From: Candidatus Helarchaeota archaeon
Lineage (GTDB): Archaea > Asgardarchaeota > Lokiarchaeia > Helarchaeales > HEL-GB-A
Assembly (NCBI GenBank): GCA_016840125.1
Contig: JAEOSY010000681.1
Location: 1-7,815 of the forward strand
Direction: 5' to 3'
DNA length: 7,815 bases
Both the position numbers and the translations under genes were made by a program. The notes beneath the pieces are model-generated. The model saw only the letters and a program-made list of their open reading frames with translations, had not been told where the DNA came from and searched no databases. This document shows positions 1-7,815 of this stretch, in pieces (the first letter of the stretch is position 1; every line of letters begins with the position of its first letter).

Positions 1-283
1 AAGTCGTTTACAGTACGGACTTATTATCGTAAGGAGGAGGGACTTATTATCGTAATCAGCTTGATCTTAATGGATATCGTTTTGTATTTGGGCGAATTTC
101 TTATCTCGAAGGGGAGGACTTATTATCGTAATCAGCTTGATCTTAATGGATATCGTTTTGTATTTGGGCGAATTTAACGTTCCCATAAATATCCTACTGG
201 TGGCACTATTTATACCGTTTGAAATCTTTATAGTCCTCTGGTACATTCTGAAATATTTCTATTTTCCCGAAAAGATGAGATAA
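1..283 (+). pseudogene. 3' end of a small membrane-protein gene broken by a 76-bp duplication
   Basis: From base 1 a plus-strand frame is open and encodes a hydrophobic stretch ending in ...DIVLYLGEF (to base 99). It then runs off frame and stops at 175-177. The same hydrophobic stretch is encoded again at 116-175 in a different frame, and that copy continues without a stop to TAA at 281-283 (...VPINILLVALFIP... ending FPEKMR). Removing one 76-bp unit joins the two into a single frame of 68 residues plus stop: a charged lead, two membrane helices and a short basic tail. So either a tandem duplication has disrupted a real gene or the assembly is wrong here. The 5' end lies outside the window. 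No family is recognised. An alternative is a short gene starting after the purine-rich AAGGAGGAGG at 31-40, but no ATG or GTG follows at the right distance. Confidence 0.5.
40..175 (+). repeat. 60-bp exact direct repeat with a 76-bp period
   Basis: Bases 40-99 and 116-175 are identical over 60 bp. A third partial copy of the first 16 bases (GGACTTATTATCGTAA) lies at 17-32, ending just before the purine-rich run. The period of 76 is not a multiple of three, so the duplication shifts the reading frame of the membrane-protein remnant. The copies show no divergence, so the event is recent or is an assembly error at a contig edge. Confidence 0.9.
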
Positions 284-510: not shown

Positions 511-671
511 TTAGAAGTTTACAAAAAGTAGAGGGCTTCGTTAGAAGTTTACCAATGGATTAGTTAGAATTTTACCAATTAGTTAGAACTTTACTAGAAC
601 CCTAGTTAGAAGTTTACAAAAAGGACTGTAAGAAATTTACAAGTAACTTAGAACCTTCAAAATACTTCATC
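511..671 (+). repeat. Dispersed-repeat cluster 1 (six units) in the 284-790 gap
   Basis: Copies of the 13-bp motif start at 511 and 606 (exact TTAGAAGTTTACA), 541 (TTAGAAGTTTACC), 564 (TTAGAATTTTACC), 583 (TTAGAACTTTACT) and 629 (TAAGAAATTTACA). Successive spacings are 30, 23, 19, 23 and 23 bp. The first spacer is the GTAGAGG-type sequence at 528-540. The last unit is followed by AAGTAACTTAGAACC and, a few bases on, AAAATACTTC. This right flank recurs at 6423-6450. All units are on the plus strand, while the next gene lies on the minus strand with its 3' end facing this cluster. I see no gene in the rest of the gap (413-510 and 672-790). Confidence 0.85.
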
Positions 672-790
672 ACACACTTGAAAATTTCTTTTGCGAAATC
701 CACATGAGAGTTGATTGAGTCTGAACATTGCAGCGGTTAGAACGTAATCAATTATGGAGGCGTCTTCTTTTGTGGTCTTACCTTGGTTAT

Positions 791-2026
791 CTATGACTCT
801 GCTTCATATTTAACTCGTTTCCAATAATAAGAAGCAAGGAAAATGATCGCAATGGCAGATCCAAGTAAAAGAGAAATCCACCATTCCCGATTCCATCCCA
901 ATATCGAAATAATTGCGAGAATTATCGAATAAGCTGTGAAGAAACTCACCATTTCTTTCATAGGGGTTTTATTTTTTCCAATATATAAGAGACATATCGT
1001 TGTGCAAGCACCTCCAACCAACAGGGAGATGAAAACTGACTCGAGAGTAAGAGTGTTGTCCCAAGGAAAGATATTAAAACCTGTAAAAAGCATGAACCCA
1101 GAAAACCCAAAAATGAATATGGTAAAGCAAATCGATAATACAATTCGGTTTGGTCCCTTTGTTTCACGTATTATCCCAAATGCCATTAGACCAAAGGCAG
1201 CGAAGGGAAGAATAATTATGGCCATAGTGCTAGTATTAATTGAACTGTAGTTATCTGTGATAATATTATTTGAGCTAGATTCCTCACTAATAGAAATTGA
1301 ATTACCTTGAAGAGTGTTCCATTTGATTGCGTTTGAATGTGCTAAATATAGTTCGATACCATAAATGTTATGACTTATTGTGTTCGAAAATACATTAGTT
1401 CTGTTTGCTTTTTCAAGCCTAATTCCCCCATTATTAACTACAATAGAATTCGAGAAGATGTGATTTAGTATAGAATTATAAATCGCAATTCCACGTGAGT
1501 TCGATGAAATAACATTGTTTGAGAGATTATTTGCATTTCCATCGTTCAAACTGATTCCAACATAATTATCTGCTATTATATTATTCGATATTATGTTATC
1601 ATGAGAAGATGTCAATTGAATCCCATAATGATTGTCAGTGAGCGTATTAAAGGAAAGATTTGCGTTTGTCACGTTAACTAACCAGATCCCTGCATAACCA
1701 TTCGGAGACGTTCCTGTAATATTACAACCGCGAAGGGTGAAGTAAGCCGAAGTATGCCAGATTGAGATACCATGGGTAAAAGGAACAGTTACGTTGATAT
1801 CATAATTCTCAAGTATATATGGATTAGCCATCGTGCCATTACCTAATGTTGCATTTAATGCGAGCTCCGCATCGCCAACTATGGAGAAGGGAAGGGAAGC
1901 TTTCCGTATTCCACCATTATAGATGGATTCGTTCCTTAGTGGTGTAATAAAGGGAGTTAGAATTACGCTCAGGATAAATATTAAGAAGCATGCAAGGATT
2001 ACTACTTTAATCCAACGTTTCCTCAT
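791..2026 (-). CDS. Secreted NosD-like parallel beta-helix protein with a five-helix membrane C-terminus
   Basis: This 411-residue protein begins with a positively charged lead and a hydrophobic helix (residues 8-29), a signal peptide or anchor. Residues 45-75 carry the G-N-G-T-x-x-N-P-Y-I-L-E-N-Y-D-I entry motif typical of archaeal NosD/CASH-type beta-helix proteins. Residues 85-260 consist of about eight irregular 22-24-residue rungs of the N-x-I-S-N-N-x-I-x-x-N-x-x-G-I type. These domains form right-handed parallel beta-helices that usually bind or process polysaccharide. Many N-x-S/T sequons fit an extracellular location. Five membrane helices follow (about 267-286, 294-315, 328-349, 359-377, 383-401). 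I see no catalytic motif, so enzyme activity is not claimed. The ATG at 2026 has a GGAAGGGAT SD seven bases upstream. The gene stands alone; its promoter faces away from the gene at 2473. Confidence 0.9.
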   Translation of the reverse strand: MRKRWIKVVILACFLIFILSVILTPFITPLRNESIYNGGIRKASLPFSIVGDAELALNATLGNGTMANPYILENYDINVTVPFTHGISIWHTSAYFTLRGCNITGTSPNGYAGIWLVNVTNANLSFNTLTDNHYGIQLTSSHDNIISNNIIADNYVGISLNDGNANNLSNNVISSNSRGIAIYNSILNHIFSNSIVVNNGGIRLEKANRTNVFSNTISHNIYGIELYLAHSNAIKWNTLQGNSISISEESSSNNIITDNYSSINTSTMAIIILPFAAFGLMAFGIIRETKGPNRIVLSICFTIFIFGFSGFMLFTGFNIFPWDNTLTLESVFISLLVGGACTTICLLYIGKNKTPMKEMVSFFTAYSIILAIISILGWNREWWISLLLGSAIAIIFLASYYWKRVKYEAES

Positions 2027-2032
2027 TTAGAC

Positions 2033-2070
2033 ATCCCTTCCAATCTAAAATAGTAAATTCAAAATAAAAA
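2033..2070 (-). promoter_or_regulatory. SD and candidate TATA box of the beta-helix gene
   Basis: On the minus strand, GGAAGGGAT (2041-2033) ends seven bases before the ATG and is a plausible SD. The T/A-rich run TTTTTATTTT (2070-2061) would place a transcript start near 2038, giving a short leader that contains the SD. A second TATA-like sequence, TTTTATAAA, is further upstream (about 2112-2104). Which one is used cannot be decided by reading. Confidence 0.4.
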
Positions 2071-2193
2071 GCTATATCTTAATTATGTTTGAAATTTCAA
2101 GAGTTTATAAAAGGATTCGGAGCTCTAAGAGATAATTAAATTCTATCTAATCCTGACAGATAAGATGACTTATTGGAAGATCACCGCGAATGG

Positions 2194-2240
2194 TTTGAAG
2201 TTTACAATTCCTTTAGAAGTTTACAAGTGGCGCATAACCT
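2194..2240 (+). repeat. Dispersed-repeat cluster 2 (two units) in the 2027-2472 gap
   Basis: TTTGAAGTTTACA at 2194-2206 and exact TTAGAAGTTTACA at 2213-2225 are spaced 19 bp apart. The second unit is followed by AAGTGGCGCATAACCTTCC, which resembles the right flank after clusters 1 and 5. This cluster sits between divergent genes, about 170 bp upstream of the minus-strand beta-helix gene and about 250 bp upstream of the plus-strand membrane-protein gene. The rest of this gap holds the palindrome at 2335-2353 and a doubtful peptide ORF. Confidence 0.85.
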
Positions 2241-2334
2241 TCCAGATTGTTTTATTTTTCAGTTGTGAGGGGTGTCCGTTTACCCCAATATGAAGAGTTT
2301 CTAAAAACCAGATTACTTTTCTTTAATAATCAAG

Positions 2335-2353
2335 TAAAATTATCATAATTTTA
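2335..2353. promoter_or_regulatory. 19-bp perfect palindrome, possible operator
   Basis: TAAAATTATCATAATTTTA is a perfect inverted repeat with nine-base arms around one central C. It lies in the divergent intergenic region, about 120 bp before the apparent start of the zinc-ribbon membrane protein and nine bases before a 24-codon peptide ORF. Arms of this length are typical of dimeric regulator sites. The sequence is also A/T-rich, so chance is less unlikely than for a mixed palindrome. Confidence 0.45.
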
Positions 2354-2361
2354 ACATCCAT

Positions 2362-2436
2362 ATGTTTATTTCTATTCAGATAATTGCTCTCTGCGTAGGT
2401 ACTTTACATCTTTTCATCGGGATAAGAAAAATATAG
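2362..2436 (+). CDS. Doubtful 24-residue hydrophobic peptide ORF upstream of the zinc-ribbon gene
   Basis: ATG at 2362 opens a 24-codon frame whose product is a single hydrophobic helix (begins MFISIQIIAL, ends FIGIRKI) with a basic C-terminus. It ends 36 bp before the next gene's apparent start and directly follows the 19-bp palindrome. There is no SD, and it would have to be leaderless. The composition fits a small membrane peptide or upstream ORF, but a frame this short in A/T-rich DNA is weak evidence. Confidence 0.18.
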   Translation: MFISIQIIALCVGTLHLFIGIRKI

Positions 2437-2455
2437 GAGAGCTACCAGTAATCAT

Positions 2456-2463
2456 AAGGAGGT
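2456..2463 (+). promoter_or_regulatory. Strong Shine-Dalgarno that decides an ATT start
   Basis: AAGGAGGT is a full anti-16S match, and it ends nine bases before ATT at 2473. In that frame it directly follows a stop (2455-2457), so the true start must lie downstream of it. No ATG, GTG or TTG occurs in frame until the TTG at 2539, 75 bases beyond the SD and in the middle of the first membrane helix. Confidence 0.75.
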
Positions 2464-2472
2464 TACGGAAAA

Positions 2473-2943
2473 ATTAATATTCGAAAACAAGAAGCCGTTT
2501 TAATTGGGTTCAGTTTTATAATACCTGGACTAATAGGGTTGGTCCTTTCATTTATAATTCCCTATTATGATCCTAGGATAGTCATATTTGATTGGATAGT
2601 GGCGGGTTTACTTATTACGGGTGGGGTAGGGTACCTTGCCTTAAAATTCTCTGGGAAGATTGTTAGGTTCGATCCTCCAAAGTCACAGAAGAGCCAATTA
2701 GTTCTAGGCTCATTTCTTCTCATCATATATTCCATTGGCTTATTTCTTTCATTTTATCCACCTTTTTTAATGCCATATTGCGTTATTTGGGGGCTTTTGA
2801 TGACGTCAATTTGGCTCCACCACAACCGTCAGAAATTCACCCGCCTATGTCCATACTGTGAGAAAGATTTGATTGATATCAACCAAAGAGACCATTTCCG
2901 ATGTGAAAATTGTGAAAAATCGTTCCGATTGAAGGCGAAGTGA
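2473..2943 (+). CDS. Four-helix membrane protein with C-terminal zinc ribbon, apparent ATT start
   Basis: Reading from ATT at 2473 gives 156 residues beginning (M)NIRKQEAVLIGF. The first membrane helix (about 7-30) is complete only with this start. Helices follow at about 35-57, 74-96 and 100-115. The soluble tail carries a zinc ribbon with C126-x2-C129 and C144-x2-C147 (CPYC...CENC), followed by a basic end. The four cysteines should bind one zinc on the cytoplasmic side. No catalytic motif is visible and I do not recognise a named family. Proteins with several helices and a short CPYC/CxxC tail are common unassigned archaeal membrane proteins. The conventional TTG at 2539 lacks an SD and would cut helix 1. 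An ATG-to-ATT sequence error is the alternative to a true ATT start. A TATA-like AAAATATA lies at 2428-2435. Confidence 0.75.
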   Translation: MNIRKQEAVLIGFSFIIPGLIGLVLSFIIPYYDPRIVIFDWIVAGLLITGGVGYLALKFSGKIVRFDPPKSQKSQLVLGSFLLIIYSIGLFLSFYPPFLMPYCVIWGLLMTSIWLHHNRQKFTRLCPYCEKDLIDINQRDHFRCENCEKSFRLKAK

Positions 2944-3028
2944 AGGGATCTAACTCGCCGATCTGGATGCTAGAGTAATAAAACCTTAGACTTATCATTA
3001 CAGATTAGCTTAAACTTTTGTGGGTTCT

Positions 3029-3115
3029 TTAGATGTCTACAAAACTGTTAGAAGTTTACAAAGAATATAGACCTCCACGTTATTTGTTTACAATTCCGAG
3101 TGTTAGAAGTTTAAG
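3029..3115 (+). repeat. Dispersed-repeat cluster 3 (four units) in the 2944-3355 gap
   Basis: Units start at 3029 (TTAGATGTCTACA, degenerate), 3048 (exact), 3080 (TTATTTGTTTACA) and 3103 (TTAGAAGTTTAAG). Spacings are 19, 32 and 23 bp. The 32-bp interval contains ATAGACCTCCACG (3067-3079), the same spacer class that precedes TTATTTGTTTACA at 6247 and 6387. The cluster lies between two plus-strand genes. The remainder of the gap contains a doubtful 28-codon ORF and a hairpin with a T run. Confidence 0.85.
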
Positions 3116-3173
3116 GGCGACTGAATAGATAGTAATTCAGTTGGAAAGGTAAAATAGCTAGAGATGACATAAC

Positions 3174-3260
3174 ATGACTTTTGAGGAAAGCTTGAACATC
3201 ATTAATGAAAAAATATATTTATCAAGACGAAAGCGTCGGGTTGTCCAATTAATGTTTTAA
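3174..3260 (+). CDS. Possible 28-residue basic small protein
   Basis: ATG at 3174 opens a 28-codon frame. Its product begins MTFEESLNIINEKI and continues with a strongly basic stretch (SRRKRR) and a hydrophobic end. The acidic, helical start and balanced codon choice look protein-like, and a hairpin with an eight-T run begins two bases after the stop, as if closing a short transcript. Against it, the SD is poor (only GAGATGAC, about five bases before the ATG) and no homologous family is recognised. It could equally be leader DNA of the LRR gene. Confidence 0.28.
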   Translation: MTFEESLNIINEKIYLSRRKRRVVQLMF

Positions 3261-3261
3261 T

Positions 3262-3289
3262 GCTTTTTTTTATGAAAAGATAAAAAAGC
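3262..3289 (+). terminator. A/T-rich hairpin with T8 run, possible terminator
   Basis: GCTTTTTT at 3262-3269 and AAAAAAGC at 3282-3289 form an eight-base stem with a 12-base loop. The left arm is part of an eight-T run. Archaeal polymerase terminates on T-rich stretches with little need for a stem, so the T run is the relevant part. It would end any transcript from the cluster-3 region before the LRR gene. Confidence 0.35.
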
Positions 3290-3355
3290 TGCAAGAATAA
3301 TACAATAAAAAGGCGATATAAGAAGAGAACGTAATTATGCGAGGCGAAAGCTTGT

Positions 3356-4639
3356 ATGGTTAAACTTCCGGCTAATTTCGACGTGACTCCGCTTGACGAT
3401 GCCATCGTGGTCGAAAATGGTACCACGCTAAGCAAGGCAGAACACGAGGGGTTGAAGACACTGGGTTTCAAGGATAAATACATCCAAGATGTCCAACATC
3501 CAAGCGGAACTGGCATCGTGTATGAAGGACACGTTGTTTATCTCAAACCTAAAAAGAATATCCCACCTGATTTTGATTTCAGCGTATTTCCCTACTTGGT
3601 GGAATTGATAATACTTGGGAAGGTGAAGGAGCCAGTGTTCCATGCATCGATAGGGAAATTGTACCACCTGAGAAACTTGCAGTTCTACCATCATGAATGT
3701 GATGCATTTCCTGAAAACCTTCGTCTCTCCCCTAATCTCGAGAAATTAGACCTGGAACGATTAAATGTAAAGGAAATCCCGCCCATCCTTTCAAACCCCA
3801 ATAATATCAAGCGTTTGGGTTTCTGGTCCATGCCCTCCTTGGACACCTTTCCTGCATGGATTACTGATTGCGTGAATTTAAGGGTGTTAACCATCAGGAA
3901 AACTGGAATATCTGAATTTCCTGAATCGTTACAATCATTACAAGAATTAGGTTCTGTTGCCTTGAGCGATAGTCCTTTACGAGTGGTGCCACGATTCCTA
4001 TCAAAGTTGCCCCGATTGAACTCCTTATCCCTAGTTAAAACTGAAATCGAGGTTTTACCTGATTGGATAGGGAACCTGCGTGATTTAAAAGGTATTAGTA
4101 TCGCGGATAACAAGATCACCCATCTGCCCGATTCAATCGGAAACCTGTCTGCATTGAAACGACTTCGTATGGACCGGAATCGACTCGTGGAGATTCCTGA
4201 CGGAATCGGCGGGTGCGTGAACCTTGATGAATTATATGCCAGGAATAACGATATCAAACAGATCAGTCCCGAAATCGGAAATTGTAAAAAGCTATCATGC
4301 ATTGACTTGGAAGGTAACCAACTCCACGAGTTGCCTGAAACGTTTGGGAACCTTGTTTCGCTTAAGACGCTCGATCTTTCCAGGAATAAATTAAAGACAT
4401 TACCCGACAGTTTCGGCAACCTGACTTCTCTGACTTCGCTGGATCTCTCTCACAACCAATTGAAAGATCTTCCCGAGTCCATAGGAAACCTGCCCGACAA
4501 CCTGATCATTACATTGGGTTTTAATCCACTCCCGGACATGCTGTGGAACATCCTTGATGAGTCTCCCGGCAGGTTCAAGATCATGGAAGGAATTCGTGAA
4601 TACCTCAAGGTTCGTTCTGGAGACAGGCAAAATCATTAA
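3356..4639 (+). CDS. Leucine-rich-repeat protein, cytoplasmic
   Basis: This 427-residue protein has about 13 tandem 23-residue LRRs from about residue 82 to 385, of the LxxLxLxxNxLxxLPxxIGNL type found in SDS22- and PIRL-like proteins. The last six repeats are near-canonical and the first six are divergent. Residues 1-80 are non-repetitive, and a short helical tail (about 395-427) ends in a basic stretch. There is no signal peptide or membrane helix, so it should be cytoplasmic. The solenoid is a protein-binding scaffold. No GTPase, kinase or other effector domain is attached, so any activity must come from a partner. ATG at 3356 is the first in-frame start after a stop at 3332, with GAGGCG ten bases before it. 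The DNA is clearly richer in G+C than the neighbours, which hints at transfer or stronger expression. The next gene is co-oriented, 121 bp downstream. Confidence 0.92.
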   Translation: MVKLPANFDVTPLDDAIVVENGTTLSKAEHEGLKTLGFKDKYIQDVQHPSGTGIVYEGHVVYLKPKKNIPPDFDFSVFPYLVELIILGKVKEPVFHASIGKLYHLRNLQFYHHECDAFPENLRLSPNLEKLDLERLNVKEIPPILSNPNNIKRLGFWSMPSLDTFPAWITDCVNLRVLTIRKTGISEFPESLQSLQELGSVALSDSPLRVVPRFLSKLPRLNSLSLVKTEIEVLPDWIGNLRDLKGISIADNKITHLPDSIGNLSALKRLRMDRNRLVEIPDGIGGCVNLDELYARNNDIKQISPEIGNCKKLSCIDLEGNQLHELPETFGNLVSLKTLDLSRNKLKTLPDSFGNLTSLTSLDLSHNQLKDLPESIGNLPDNLIITLGFNPLPDMLWNILDESPGRFKIMEGIREYLKVRSGDRQNH

Positions 4640-4654
4640 AAGTTTTCATCTCTC

Positions 4655-4697
4655 TTAGAAGTTTACAAAAAGTAGAGGTCTTCGTTAGAAGTTTAGA
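4655..4697 (+). repeat. Dispersed-repeat cluster 4 (two units)
   Basis: Exact TTAGAAGTTTACA at 4655-4667 and TTAGAAGTTTAGA at 4685-4697 are 30 bp apart, with spacer GTAGAGGTCTTCG at 4672-4684. The first unit begins only 15 bp after the LRR stop codon. Including spacer and flank, this pair is almost identical to the pairs starting at 511 and 6325. Confidence 0.85.
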
Positions 4698-4700
4698 GGA

Positions 4701-4738
4701 TCAATATACGAATTGAGAATTTGCATGGTATTTTTAAG
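4701..4738 (+). promoter_or_regulatory. Candidate leaderless promoter of the HEPN-like gene, with inverted repeat
   Basis: TTTTTAAG at 4731-4738 is centred about 27 bp before the ATG at 4761, the expected TATA distance for a leaderless archaeal transcript. The only purine-rich match (AAGGA, 4736-4740) is 20 bases from the ATG, too far for an SD. Just upstream, TCAAT (4701-4705) and ATTGA (4712-4716) form an inverted repeat with a six-base gap, in the usual place for a regulator. The minus-strand gene ending at 7373 has a very similar box, TTTTTTAAGG. Confidence 0.4.
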
Positions 4739-4760
4739 GAATAGCTGATTTTTATAGGCA

Positions 4761-6038
4761 ATGTGTGAAAAGGATTATTCTTCATTCTTGAAGCGGCTAA
4801 AAGACTCGTTGTTAGAGTCCGACGAAAACATTAATATTGAGAAGCTAAGAAGACCAGAGGATCCACTTTCTGGGATTGTCTGGGATATAATCAAGATGCT
4901 AAAATCAGCTGATATTGAAAAAGTAAAAGTTCAATATAACGAGCTTCTGGAGAAATTTAGTGCTGAGGCAAAAAGGACTGCCCAATCAAACCCTTCAGAT
5001 TATCTTCAAACGCTCCAAGAATTTATTAGTCTTTTTGAGCCAATAGTTGTGGATGGTGCATTCAATGATCAAAGTACTCCTGGTTTATTGAATCCTGATA
5101 AACACAAGGGTTTTTGGTCAGATAAATATTTAAATCTATATGACCAGATGGGCAAAATTTACGAGGTGATAGCAGCTTCATGTGATATAGATCTAGAATT
5201 GGAGGATCTAAAACTAGATTTAAGACTTGATTTATGTATTCGATTGACTCAATTTGTAAGGGATCTAGCAGCGATTCAGAATGAACCAAAACTTTCAGTT
5301 AAGCAAGAATTAGAGTTGCTATTTAACTTTATCTCATATTATGAAAATTTTTTGACAATTATGGCGATGGAGTTAAACCCTCAGAACAAAAAATTAAAAT
5401 TTGGGACGCCTTTCGGAATTATTCTCCATAAACTTGCCGGAGGAAACAAAAACTTCATAAAAATTCATAAAAATTTTTTCAAGATAAAGCAATTTCGCAA
5501 TAAGCAGGCCCATCACATGCTAACCCAACGAGAGGGACGACTCTATTGGTATGATGGCAAGAACCACGAAATCAAACGGGAGGCTGTCGAGGATGCAATA
5601 GATTACATACTCATTCTCCTGTACGCTTTCATGGACCATTGGGTTCTAGGAACGCTTCGGAAGAAGACAAAACTAGTATTGCCTATTTTAGGGGCCGCCC
5701 AGACGCATAATGAGAGTATTCTGAATTGCAAAAATGTTTCTGAAGAGCATTGGACATATATTCTGGATAAAATCGCAGCTAAATTCACATCTTCGCCCAA
5801 TCAGAGTAAAAATTTACGTTATAATCATTTCCTCCTAGAGCTGGAACGATCGCGAAAACAAGGTGCCCTACCCTATTCGCAGAGGATTATTAAACATGCA
5901 TTAGACATAGTCATTGAAATTAGTTTTCTAAGAAAAACGGGAATCCATTCCTACTCGCTTGCAGATGATTGTAAGGAGAATTTTAAACAATACTTAAGAG
6001 AGATTGAAAATTTCTGTATGGCTTTTATTAAGCCTTAA
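4761..6038 (+). CDS. Large helical protein with a HEPN-like domain, possible RNase
   Basis: This 425-residue protein is predominantly helical and has no signal peptide or membrane helix. Residues about 180-295 resemble a HEPN domain: helices rich in L/I/F, then F-R246-N-K-Q-A-H251-H, then a short strand-like turn (GRLYWYDG) and a long hydrophobic helix (EDAIDYILILLYAFMDHW). The R-N-x3-H arrangement is the RNA-cleaving R-x4-6-H motif of HEPN nucleases, which act in toxin-antitoxin, CRISPR-ancillary and abortive-infection systems. The rest (1-180 and 300-425) is helical and unrecognised; the C-terminal part carries an R-x-R/K-basic stretch. No nucleotidyltransferase antitoxin gene lies next to it. 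The assignment rests on one motif and its surroundings, so another helical family remains possible. The gene is co-oriented with the LRR gene and 121 bp behind it, but it has its own promoter-like sequence. Confidence 0.65.
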   Translation: MCEKDYSSFLKRLKDSLLESDENINIEKLRRPEDPLSGIVWDIIKMLKSADIEKVKVQYNELLEKFSAEAKRTAQSNPSDYLQTLQEFISLFEPIVVDGAFNDQSTPGLLNPDKHKGFWSDKYLNLYDQMGKIYEVIAASCDIDLELEDLKLDLRLDLCIRLTQFVRDLAAIQNEPKLSVKQELELLFNFISYYENFLTIMAMELNPQNKKLKFGTPFGIILHKLAGGNKNFIKIHKNFFKIKQFRNKQAHHMLTQREGRLYWYDGKNHEIKREAVEDAIDYILILLYAFMDHWVLGTLRKKTKLVLPILGAAQTHNESILNCKNVSEEHWTYILDKIAAKFTSSPNQSKNLRYNHFLLELERSRKQGALPYSQRIIKHALDIVIEISFLRKTGIHSYSLADDCKENFKQYLREIENFCMAFIKP

Positions 6039-6157
6039 ACAATGATCTGTATTTATTATTGGATGTTACATTAAGTTTAATTGGAAAATGCTTTTATTTA
6101 TCTGTATTTGGAAAGGGATTCTAAAACAAGCCAAGCTTTCAGATAAAAATAATTTGA

Positions 6158-6163
6158 TTTTTT
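6158..6163 (+). terminator. T6 run downstream of the HEPN-like gene
   Basis: A six-T run (GATTTTTTG) lies about 120 bp after the stop at 6038, in A/T-rich DNA without a clear stem. It is a plausible archaeal T-tract terminator for the HEPN-like gene, but such runs are common here. Confidence 0.22.
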
Positions 6164-6230
6164 GTTCAATGTCTATTTTAAAGCTGTGCTTTCTTAAAGT
6201 TGCGATCAAATTAGAAAGGATTTCTTCAAA

Positions 6231-6460
6231 AAAATAGACCTCAACGTTATTTGTTTACAAACCCGCATTGTTAGAAGTTTACAAAATGCGATTGTTAGAA
6301 GTTTACAAAAGGTAGAGGTCTTCGTTAGAAGTTTACAAAAGGTAGAGGTCTTCGTTAGAAGTTTACAAGAAAGATAGACCTCAACGTTATTTGTTTACAA
6401 ATCCTGACTGTTAGAAGTTTACAAGTAGCTTAGAATCGTATAAAATACTTCCGTAGTATT
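6231..6460 (+). repeat. Dispersed-repeat cluster 5 (seven units) between convergent genes
   Basis: Units start at 6247 and 6387 (TTATTTGTTTACA) and at 6271, 6295, 6325, 6355 and 6411 (exact TTAGAAGTTTACA). Spacings are 24, 24, 30, 30, 32 and 24 bp. The 30-bp intervals both carry GTAGAGGTCTTCG (6312-6324, 6342-6354). ATAGACCTCAACG precedes each TTATTTG unit (6234-6246, 6374-6386). The cluster closes with AAGTAGCTTAGAATCG and AAAATACTTC, the flank also seen after cluster 1. AATACT (6444-6449) and AGTATT (6455-6460) add a small hairpin. It occupies the gap between the plus-strand HEPN-like gene and the minus-strand zinc-protein gene. The remaining sequence of that gap is A/T-rich without a recognisable gene. 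Confidence 0.9.
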
Positions 6461-6542
6461 GAAAGCTCACAGTCTAGTCAAACCCTCTTAATATATAACC
6501 TTCGCTACTCTGATTTGATCAAAATTAAAGGGGTACTAAATT

Positions 6543-6713
6543 TCATCTTACTAACTCTAGTGTATACGTTTTCTTCTTGTTTGGTGGTGTTTTTTGATGA
6601 TGGATAATACCGTCATTCGTACAAATGTCACACATATCTTTCCTGCAAATCTGACACTTATTTCTTTTAAGTCCCCGATGGGTTGTACAGACAATACAAC
6701 TAGATTCTTCCAT
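6543..6713 (-). CDS. 56-residue B-box-like zinc-finger protein
   Basis: The minus-strand frame from ATG at 6713 to TGA at 6543 encodes 56 residues. Zinc ligands are C6-x2-C9, C20-x2-C23, C28-x2-C31 and H38-H39, with H12 a further candidate. The order C-x2-C...C-x2-C-x4-C-x2-C-x6-H-H follows the B-box cross-brace pattern, which binds two zincs and usually mediates protein contacts. A lysine-rich tail (PPNKKK) follows. Nine Cys/His in 34 residues is very unlikely by chance. A strong SD, AGAGGAG, ends ten bases before the ATG, and the gene starts 18 bp after the stop of the membrane-protein gene, so the two form an operon. The role is unknown; the zinc module may dock to its membrane partner or to RNA or ubiquitin-like factors. 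A longer antisense frame over the same DNA destroys this pattern. Confidence 0.85.
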   Translation of the reverse strand: MEESSCIVCTTHRGLKRNKCQICRKDMCDICTNDGIIHHQKTPPNKKKTYTLELVR

Positions 6714-6731
6714 TTATCATCATCTCCTCTT

Positions 6732-7373
6732 TTAAAAAAACCCCCACAACTGTCCTCCAATGAGTATTAAAATTGCTAGTGACGCTAATACGCAGAATAA
6801 ACCGGTGTAAGTACAACGAAAACCCCACTTGATACAAGTAACCTTTTGATTGTTTTTCTCACAGTAATCCCCCAAACTCGATACAATCTTATCTAACAAT
6901 TTGTCGATTATTACCTTCTCTTCTTGATAAATCAGAGCTTTTGCTTCTGTAAGGCTTTTACTGTATTGATCTCCCTGACCTTTTATGGTTTCGGTATCTT
7001 GAGACGTAGGATAATAGTCAAGGGGGCGTAACCACTCTTTAATCCATTGGGCGACCATTACGAACAGAAGAGCGACTAACAGCGAGACTGTAGCAACGAT
7101 AGCAAAGATAGTATAGGCTTGAATTAGAATTATATTGACGCTGGCTATAAGACTGTTTGTTGATACAAAGAATATTGTAGTCATGGTACCATATAGACCT
7201 AGAATTAAGCTAATTAAACGTAATTGGCTGCTCGATTTCGATTCTAAAGCTGTTTTTCTACCCTTTTCAAAATTTAATTCATTGATGTAGATGGATAAAA
7301 CTAGTTTTCCACTCGCTTCATCTATTTTTTCCACCACTTCTTCTGCCCCTGACTCAATTATAAAACTTCTCAC
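6732..7373 (-). CDS. Membrane protein with three hydrophobic segments, first gene of an operon
   Basis: The product has 213 residues. Residues 1-50 are soluble, mixed and then charged (EKGRKTALESKSSS). A hydrophobic block follows with helices at about 53-71 and 79-108. A soluble, helical region of about 75 residues (about 115-187, with a Lys/Glu-rich stretch at 143-178) precedes a last helix at about 188-208. The stop follows at once. The layout of a helical pair plus a charged cytoplasmic section faintly recalls SLATT-like two-helix effector proteins, but no diagnostic motif is visible and I do not assign a family. The start is GTG at 7373, the first standard start in a frame that opens at a TAA (7403-7401). 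It lacks an SD but has a TATA-like box about 31 bp upstream, so translation may be leaderless or nearly so. The B-box-like gene follows 18 bp downstream. Confidence 0.8.
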   Translation of the reverse strand: MRSFIIESGAEEVVEKIDEASGKLVLSIYINELNFEKGRKTALESKSSSQLRLISLILGLYGTMTTIFFVSTNSLIASVNIILIQAYTIFAIVATVSLLVALLFVMVAQWIKEWLRPLDYYPTSQDTETIKGQGDQYSKSLTEAKALIYQEEKVIIDKLLDKIVSSLGDYCEKNNQKVTCIKWGFRCTYTGLFCVLASLAILILIGGQLWGFF

Positions 7374-7398
7374 AATATGTTTTTTATTTGGTAGTCTG

Positions 7399-7427
7399 CC
7401 TTAAAAAACTATTGTAACAATATTACA
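7399..7427 (-). promoter_or_regulatory. Promoter of the membrane/B-box operon with a TGTAA-N5-TTACA palindrome
   Basis: On the minus strand, TTTTTTAAGG (7408-7399) lies about 31 bp before the GTG start and matches the box before the HEPN-like gene. Immediately upstream, TGTAA (7413-7417) and TTACA (7423-7427) form a perfect inverted repeat with a five-base gap. This is where an archaeal regulator would block or recruit TBP/TFB. Regulation of the two genes together is inferred from position only. Confidence 0.45.
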
Positions 7428-7494
7428 GAAAAAATCAAATATCAAATCTAATAGGAACCTATTTTGACTGTGTGTAGGCTTAATTTGATACGGG

Positions 7495-7509
7495 AAAGGT
7501 ATTGCCTTT
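7495..7509. other. Short inverted repeat AAAGG-N5-CCTTT
   Basis: AAAGG (7495-7499) and CCTTT (7505-7509) form a five-base stem around TATTG. It lies in the 7374-7608 stretch upstream of the operon promoter, which otherwise shows only a C-rich/T-rich tract and no gene. The function is unknown; it could be a second regulatory site or chance. Confidence 0.3.
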
Positions 7510-7608
7510 ATTCCTAACTTTGAATCCCTCCCCCCTTTTCTATTTTCCTCTAACTTTTAGGCAGTACCCCCCAAATCCACATAAATGAAAATTATATTAG
7601 AAAATTTG

Positions 7609-7692
7609 TTTGAAGTTTACAAAGATTTTCCGTTAGAAGTTTACAGACTCCCTGTGTAAAAGTTTACAAAAAAGATAGCCCTCTACGCTATC
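7609..7692 (+). repeat. Dispersed-repeat cluster 6 (three units) plus hairpin
   Basis: Units start at 7609 (TTTGAAGTTTACA), 7633 (exact) and 7656 (GTAAAAGTTTACA), spaced 24 and 23 bp. The last is followed by GATAGC (7674-7679) and GCTATC (7687-7692), a perfect six-base stem with a seven-base loop containing CCTCTAC. This hairpin sits where the GATAGACCTCAACG spacer lies in cluster 5 and looks like a variant of it. From 7693 to the end I see no gene. The last bases hold GGCGGAGGT, SD-like, within GAGGT-N5-ACCTC (7798-7812), which might precede a gene outside the window. Confidence 0.8.
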
Positions 7693-7815
7693 CACACTAA
7701 CATCCTCAAGCATAAATTTGTCTATATTCGGCAAACAAAGGTATTTAATTTATTTGGTATGAAAATTGTTAGAAAATAAATTTGAAAATCAAAGGCGGAG
7801 GTATCAAACCTCGAT

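Follow-up and report, generated by a model that had tools for sequence, protein, structure and literature searches.

Why should one short sequence recur between genes of differing orientation while itself always pointing the same way? The question is raised by contig JAEOSY010000681.1 from Candidatus Helarchaeota archaeon, whose full 7,815 nucleotides (nt) constitute the window analysed here and the source of all evidence on the repeats described below. Its non-coding gaps contain arrays of a 13-bp direct repeat with the core TTAGAAGTTTACA. We tentatively favour the view that these are dispersed, iteron-like binding-site arrays in the non-coding DNA of an archaeal genome, or of a mobile element, that has so far escaped sampling. 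This is close to the iteron option that a first-pass annotation of the same DNA had included in its list of explanations.

The repeat core and its orientation

A search of both strands of the window identified 11 exact copies of TTAGAAGTTTACA, and 15, 22 and 25 copies when up to one, two and three mismatches, respectively, were allowed. In 200 dinucleotide-preserving shuffles, scored at three mismatches with both strands summed, the mean was 5.61 copies (s.d. 2.41) and the maximum 15; none of the 200 attained 25. All 25 copies lie on the plus strand, as do the 22 with no more than two mismatches, while at four mismatches chance matches take over (46 plus, 15 minus). These data bear out the first-pass annotation, which had reported 11 exact copies and about 13 variants, exclusively on the plus strand, in six clusters, each of which was found at its place.

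The best conserved half of the core, GTTTACA, occurs 19 times on the plus strand and not at all on the minus strand of the window. Two of these 19 copies belong to another sequence, the 15-mer AAGTCGTTTACAGTA, located at 1-15 (plus strand) with an identical copy at 286-300. The 15-mer bounds a short open reading frame (ORF) and has GTTTACA, as well as its orientation, in common with the core; its membership of the repeat family is uncertain. The first letters of the contig are exactly AAGTCGTTTACAGTA.

The 25 copies form six plus-strand arrays of 6, 2, 4, 3, 7 and 3 units. Array 1 (511-660; cores at 511, 541, 564, 583, 606 and 629, with a degenerate unit, TTAGAACCTTCAA, at 648) occupies the convergent gap between the short membrane-protein-like ORF (plus strand, ending at 283, read by eye from the translation) and a NosD-like gene (minus strand, ending at 791). 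Array 2 (2194-2245; cores at 2194 and 2213, degenerate tail at 2232) lies in a divergent gap, while array 3 (3029-3115; cores at 3029, 3048, 3080 and 3103) and array 4 (4636-4697; cores at 4636, 4655 and 4685) are in co-directional gaps. The longest, array 5 (6233-6442; cores at 6247, 6271, 6295, 6325, 6355, 6387 and 6411, degenerate unit at 6430), is again in a convergent gap. Array 6 (7609-7700), in which cores at 7609, 7633 and 7656 are followed by a 19-nt spacer of the type termed B below and a degenerate unit at 7688, is 5' of a minus-strand 213-aa gene, and its gap runs to the right end of the contig. The degenerate units that end arrays 1, 2, 5 and 6 (648, 2232, 6430 and 7688) were picked by eye from alignments.

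To the right of position 284 there are six non-coding gaps of more than 100 bp and each carries one array; the left end of the contig (1-143) has none. The first-pass annotation had placed the repeat in every long intergenic gap; the gap of array 4 measures just 121 bp, so the arrays are not restricted to long ones. Coding blocks make up 65% of the window, and the placement of all six arrays in non-coding DNA has a probability of 0.0018. The sole contact with a gene is the core at 4636-4648 (two mismatches), a copy additional to those that the first-pass annotation listed for its fourth cluster, which overlaps the stop codon of the leucine-rich repeat (LRR) gene ending at 4639; the claim that no copy falls inside the main genes therefore holds for all the others.

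Anatomy and common descent of the arrays

The spacing of the units is restricted to a few values. Neighbouring core starts are 19 (four cases), 23 (five), 24 (four), 30 (four) or 32 (two) nt apart in all 19 cases. A coding repeat was rejected because steps of 19, 23 and 32 nt break the reading frame. With the degenerate tails included (n=23), the spacers are 6 (seven), 10-11 (nine), 17 (four) or 19 nt (three) long. The two shorter classes are near random in sequence: the 6-nt spacers display a mean identity of 0.40 (random 0.34, s.d. 0.04), compared with 0.81 for their cores, and the 10-11-nt spacers 0.46 (random 0.36, s.d. 0.03), compared with 0.82. Likewise, in 29 pairs drawn between arrays the cores are 0.81 alike and the spacers 0.45. 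A conserved, asymmetric and directional core separated by spacers of set length and free sequence fits a tandem protein-binding site, as in iterons.

The longer spacers are conserved. The 17-nt spacers (type A, plus strand, at 524-540, 4668-4684, 6308-6324 and 6338-6354; consensus AAARGTAGAGGKCTTCG) show a mean identity of 0.93 (random 0.40) next to cores that are identical (1.00), and the 19-nt spacers (type B, plus strand, at 3061-3079, 6368-6386 and 7669-7687, with the 3' part alone at 6233-6246; ending in ATAGACCTCNACG) show 0.81 (random 0.41) next to cores at 0.90. The core variant TTATTTGTTTACA comes directly after the type-B spacer. Both longer classes contain a hexamer, GAGGTC in the 17-nt and GACCTC in the 19-nt spacers, each the reverse complement of the other.

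The arrays are related to one another well beyond their cores. In direct orientation all 15 pairs of gaps exceed the maximum of 100 mononucleotide shuffles, and in inverted orientation none of the 15 does, showing that the arrays share descent and hence that they are copied. The longest gap-to-gap match joins 510-668 to 6294-6451; arrays 1, 2 and 5 have a common 3' tail consisting of AGTRRC and then a degraded unit, and within array 5 a 30-bp unit is repeated perfectly 2.5 times (6294-6368).

The arrays do not fold in an unusual way. When folded with RNA parameters they behave like shuffles (z from -1.76 to +1.97 in 12 folds), Rfam returned no match up to an E value of 1, and no tRNA was found in the window. 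A CTTC-GTTA-GAAG hairpin in the type-A units, for which a matching change was seen by eye in type B, was set aside since it cannot form in the majority of the other units and the folds of the arrays are no better than those of shuffles.

Binding sites or a neutral repeat family

According to the reading favoured here, the asymmetric core (G)TTAGAAGTTTACA(A) would be the site that a DNA-binding protein specifically recognises, repeated in tandem and in one direction. The arrays would have spread through the gaps of the replicon by copying from one another, with gain or loss of units, and the protein would act for the replicon as a whole, in its replication, partition or packing, and not for individual genes beside the arrays. 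We infer both the binding site and the replicon-serving protein from the pattern of conservation and placement.

Iterons and the archaeal origin recognition boxes (ORBs) are likewise asymmetric short direct repeats of similar length, arranged in tandem with variable spacers. The likeness to iterons, ORBs and mini-ORBs thus lies in short direct repeats in tandem with one orientation (25 of 25 units on the plus strand, in six arrays). Known iterons, however, sit at one origin and not in many gaps. Iterons and ORBs cluster at origins beside an initiator gene, whereas the present arrays are spread over six gaps in 7.8 kb, and a scan of six window proteins returned no Pfam, NCBIfam or PHROG match to an initiator (Rep or Orc1/Cdc6). 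ORBs are located in AT-rich origins and bound by Orc1/Cdc6 (PMC3984812).

Several further observations weigh against binding-site arrays. Among the proteins of the window no DNA-binding or replication protein was recognised. Conservation of the 17- and 19-nt spacers comes close to that of the cores beside them, a pattern that mere recent duplication would also give. The likeness of the cores is partly built in, as copies were selected by their match to the core, and the helical phasing of the cores is not significant (p 0.06-0.08). The evidence, moreover, is limited to one contig of one genome.

The main competing explanation, a real possibility, is that the repeats are neutral or selfish and that no protein binds them. 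Template switching or ectopic recombination would have copied an ancestral array into nearby gaps on the same strand, and slippage would have reshaped the copies; arrays would persist only where no gene was broken, and their common direction would be a by-product of local copying. This is consistent with the extent of the homology between arrays, which spans tens of bases and includes the spacers, while the perfect 30-bp tandem units at 6294-6368 and the recurrence of type-A and type-B spacers show recent duplication. It also suits the limited strength of the polarity, which reaches only p = 0.03 by array. Less easily accommodated is the near-random sequence of the 6- and 10-11-nt spacers in arrays whose cores are 0.81 alike. 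In addition, seven gap-free homologous pairs, which are not independent of one another, differ at 1 of 139 core positions but at 9 of 110 spacer positions.

The polarity itself is weaker than the ratio of 25 to 0 suggests. Units within an array are related, and the effective sample is therefore six arrays, for which a single direction has a two-sided p of 0.031. Nor do these six count as independent draws, given the homology between them: copying on the same strand would give them a common direction without a genome-scale cause.

Regulatory, polar and cassette explanations

It is unlikely that the arrays are gene-regulatory sites, either operators or sites acting at the RNA level in the transcripts of neighbouring genes. 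With one array per gap, each gene or gene pair does have one nearby, and precedents for regulatory direct repeats exist: those in intergenic regions of halovirus HF2 carry promoters (PMC8707807), and in Beggiatoaceae TAACTGA repeats are found immediately 5' of start codons (PMC4679880). The latter are contiguous 7-mers, most of which face a start codon at a distance of a few bases. They resemble the present family in that they are short, direct, grouped in small numbers and mainly intergenic, with no known mobility mechanism. The window's repeats, in contrast, are 13-mers separated by spacers and bear no relation to starts. Array direction is independent of gene direction, convergent gaps also carry arrays (1 and 5, alongside the divergent gap of array 2 and the co-directional gaps of arrays 3 and 4), and distances to starts or stops vary, with none fixed. 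The first-pass annotation had argued from the mixed orientation of the flanking genes that the repeat is not tied to single genes; that case appears fair, given the occurrence of arrays in all gap types and at no fixed distance.

Transcription signals point the same way. Sigma-70-like promoters show no notable excess in the window (36 against 27.2 expected, s.d. 6.2), a count that covers promoters of the bacterial type; terminator-like sites number 4 against 5.1 expected, and no RNA fold speaks for a regulatory role. One of the four lies in array 6, where the type-B spacer gives a seven-pair hairpin and then a T run on the minus strand (7673-7693); given the expected number, this terminator-like site is possibly due to chance.

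The first-pass annotation had inferred a genome-scale polarity, such as replication direction, segregation, DNA uptake or the iterons of an integrated element. We consider slightly more doubtful still such a replicon-wide polar signal, in which same-direction arrays of the 13-bp site would occupy nearly every intergenic gap of an archaeal genome or of a giant extrachromosomal element. On that account the sites would be read by a direction-dependent protein acting in replication, segregation or packaging, and spacer lengths would be limited to a few values. If arrays do run in one direction through the whole replicon, they would amount to a system of polar addresses on the DNA of an archaeal lineage about which little is known. 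Its role, though not its sequence, would compare with that of bacterial polar motifs, and the 13-mer would give direct access to the protein that reads it. If they are not replicon-wide, they still constitute a distinctive repeat family, through which contigs not yet placed could be assigned to the same organism or element.

Integron-like cassette recombination, with same-direction sites bounding each gene block, is very improbable: although gene blocks of ∼0.5-1.5 kb lie between same-direction arrays, much as attC sites lie between gene blocks, and the core starts with GTTAGAA, near the attC end GTTRRRY, no array contains a RYYYAAC...GTTRRRY pair within 40-150 nt (the R''/R' pair of attC), the window's only such pair is intragenic (5321-5378), and neither a hairpin nor, among the six proteins scanned, an integrase was seen. 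Integrons have been reported in Asgard archaea (PMC9668308).

Other repeat classes and searches for relatives

Repeats in arrays of clustered regularly interspaced short palindromic repeats (CRISPR) are ∼23-55 nt long, with unique spacers of ∼20-70 nt. Such an array was rejected, as the window has 13-nt repeats and 6-19-nt spacers, several of which recur. Miniature inverted-repeat transposable elements and repetitive extragenic palindromic elements were also rejected, given that there is no minus-strand core and no inverted gap-to-gap match above shuffles; inverted pairs at the arrays are single cases among those listed (25 of the 33 pairs). The tandem repeats of Borgs share the archaeal setting and the many direct-repeat regions, many of them intergenic. 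Borg repeats consist of perfect units set head to tail, differ by region and are in about half of cases within ORFs (PMC9879509), whereas the window has one family that is degenerate, non-coding and spaced by 6-19 nt, perfect only at 6294-6368.

Sequence searches returned no relative of the arrays. In GTDB representatives an exact two-copy pattern matched three stretches, one from Spirochaetaceae and two from Bacteroidales metagenome-assembled genomes, all unrelated single arrays with 8-, 16- or 21-nt steps; the whole genome behind the first contains no exact 13-mer on either strand. In IMG/VR the two-copy, type-A and type-B patterns each gave no match, a looser two-copy pattern gave 39 stretches and three GTTTACA in a row at least 120. 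Exact patterns of this kind would miss diverged relatives. None of 162 matched loci examined carries several arrays like those of the window; the top locus has 14 on one strand, and the steps between its clustered copies are multiples of three, as in a repeated protein. A plasmid search with array 5 as the only query gave a single match (E 0.6), and a phage search with the whole window gave none.

The first-pass annotation knew of no described family with this consensus. In agreement with it, none emerged from Rfam or from literature searches, which were not exhaustive; the exact 13-mer string does occur in the rickettsia literature.

Genes of the window

The genes among which the arrays lie comprise a NosD-like β-helix protein (791-2026, minus strand), a membrane protein with C-terminal zinc-ribbon-like CxxC pairs (2458-2943, plus strand), the LRR gene (3356-4639, plus strand), an orphan of 425 aa (4761-6038, plus strand) and two overlapping ORFs (6557-7373, minus strand), of which that at 6732-7373 is an orphan. 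Among 5.77 billion sequences the two orphans have no relative but themselves. In the same search the NosD-like protein has 50 relatives. The names of seven include an organism, which is archaeal in every case and Asgard in three (Helarchaeota, Hodarchaeales and Promethearchaeota); as the β-helix is repetitive, these relatives are moderate evidence that the DNA comes from an archaeon. The LRR protein matched 10 phage records (tblastn), reflecting general LRR likeness, and no relative was confirmed in IMG/VR.

Two short observations concern gene starts. In the gene at 2458-2943 the first ATG, GTG or TTG is at 2539 or later, yet AAGGAGG is present at 2456-2462; translation may begin at a rare codon, or the sequence may contain an error. 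At the start of the short membrane-protein-like ORF, 40-99 and 116-175 form an exact 60-bp direct duplication inside a 76-bp tandem repeat, either a real duplication or an assembly artefact.

The 425-aa protein belongs to no Pfam, NCBIfam or PADLOC family, and has one weak PHROG match (E 6e-4) of unknown function. Its single-sequence model is helical but poor, with a mean pLDDT (predicted local distance difference test) of 44.4. The protein contains RNKQAHH, which we take to resemble the HEPN nuclease motif.

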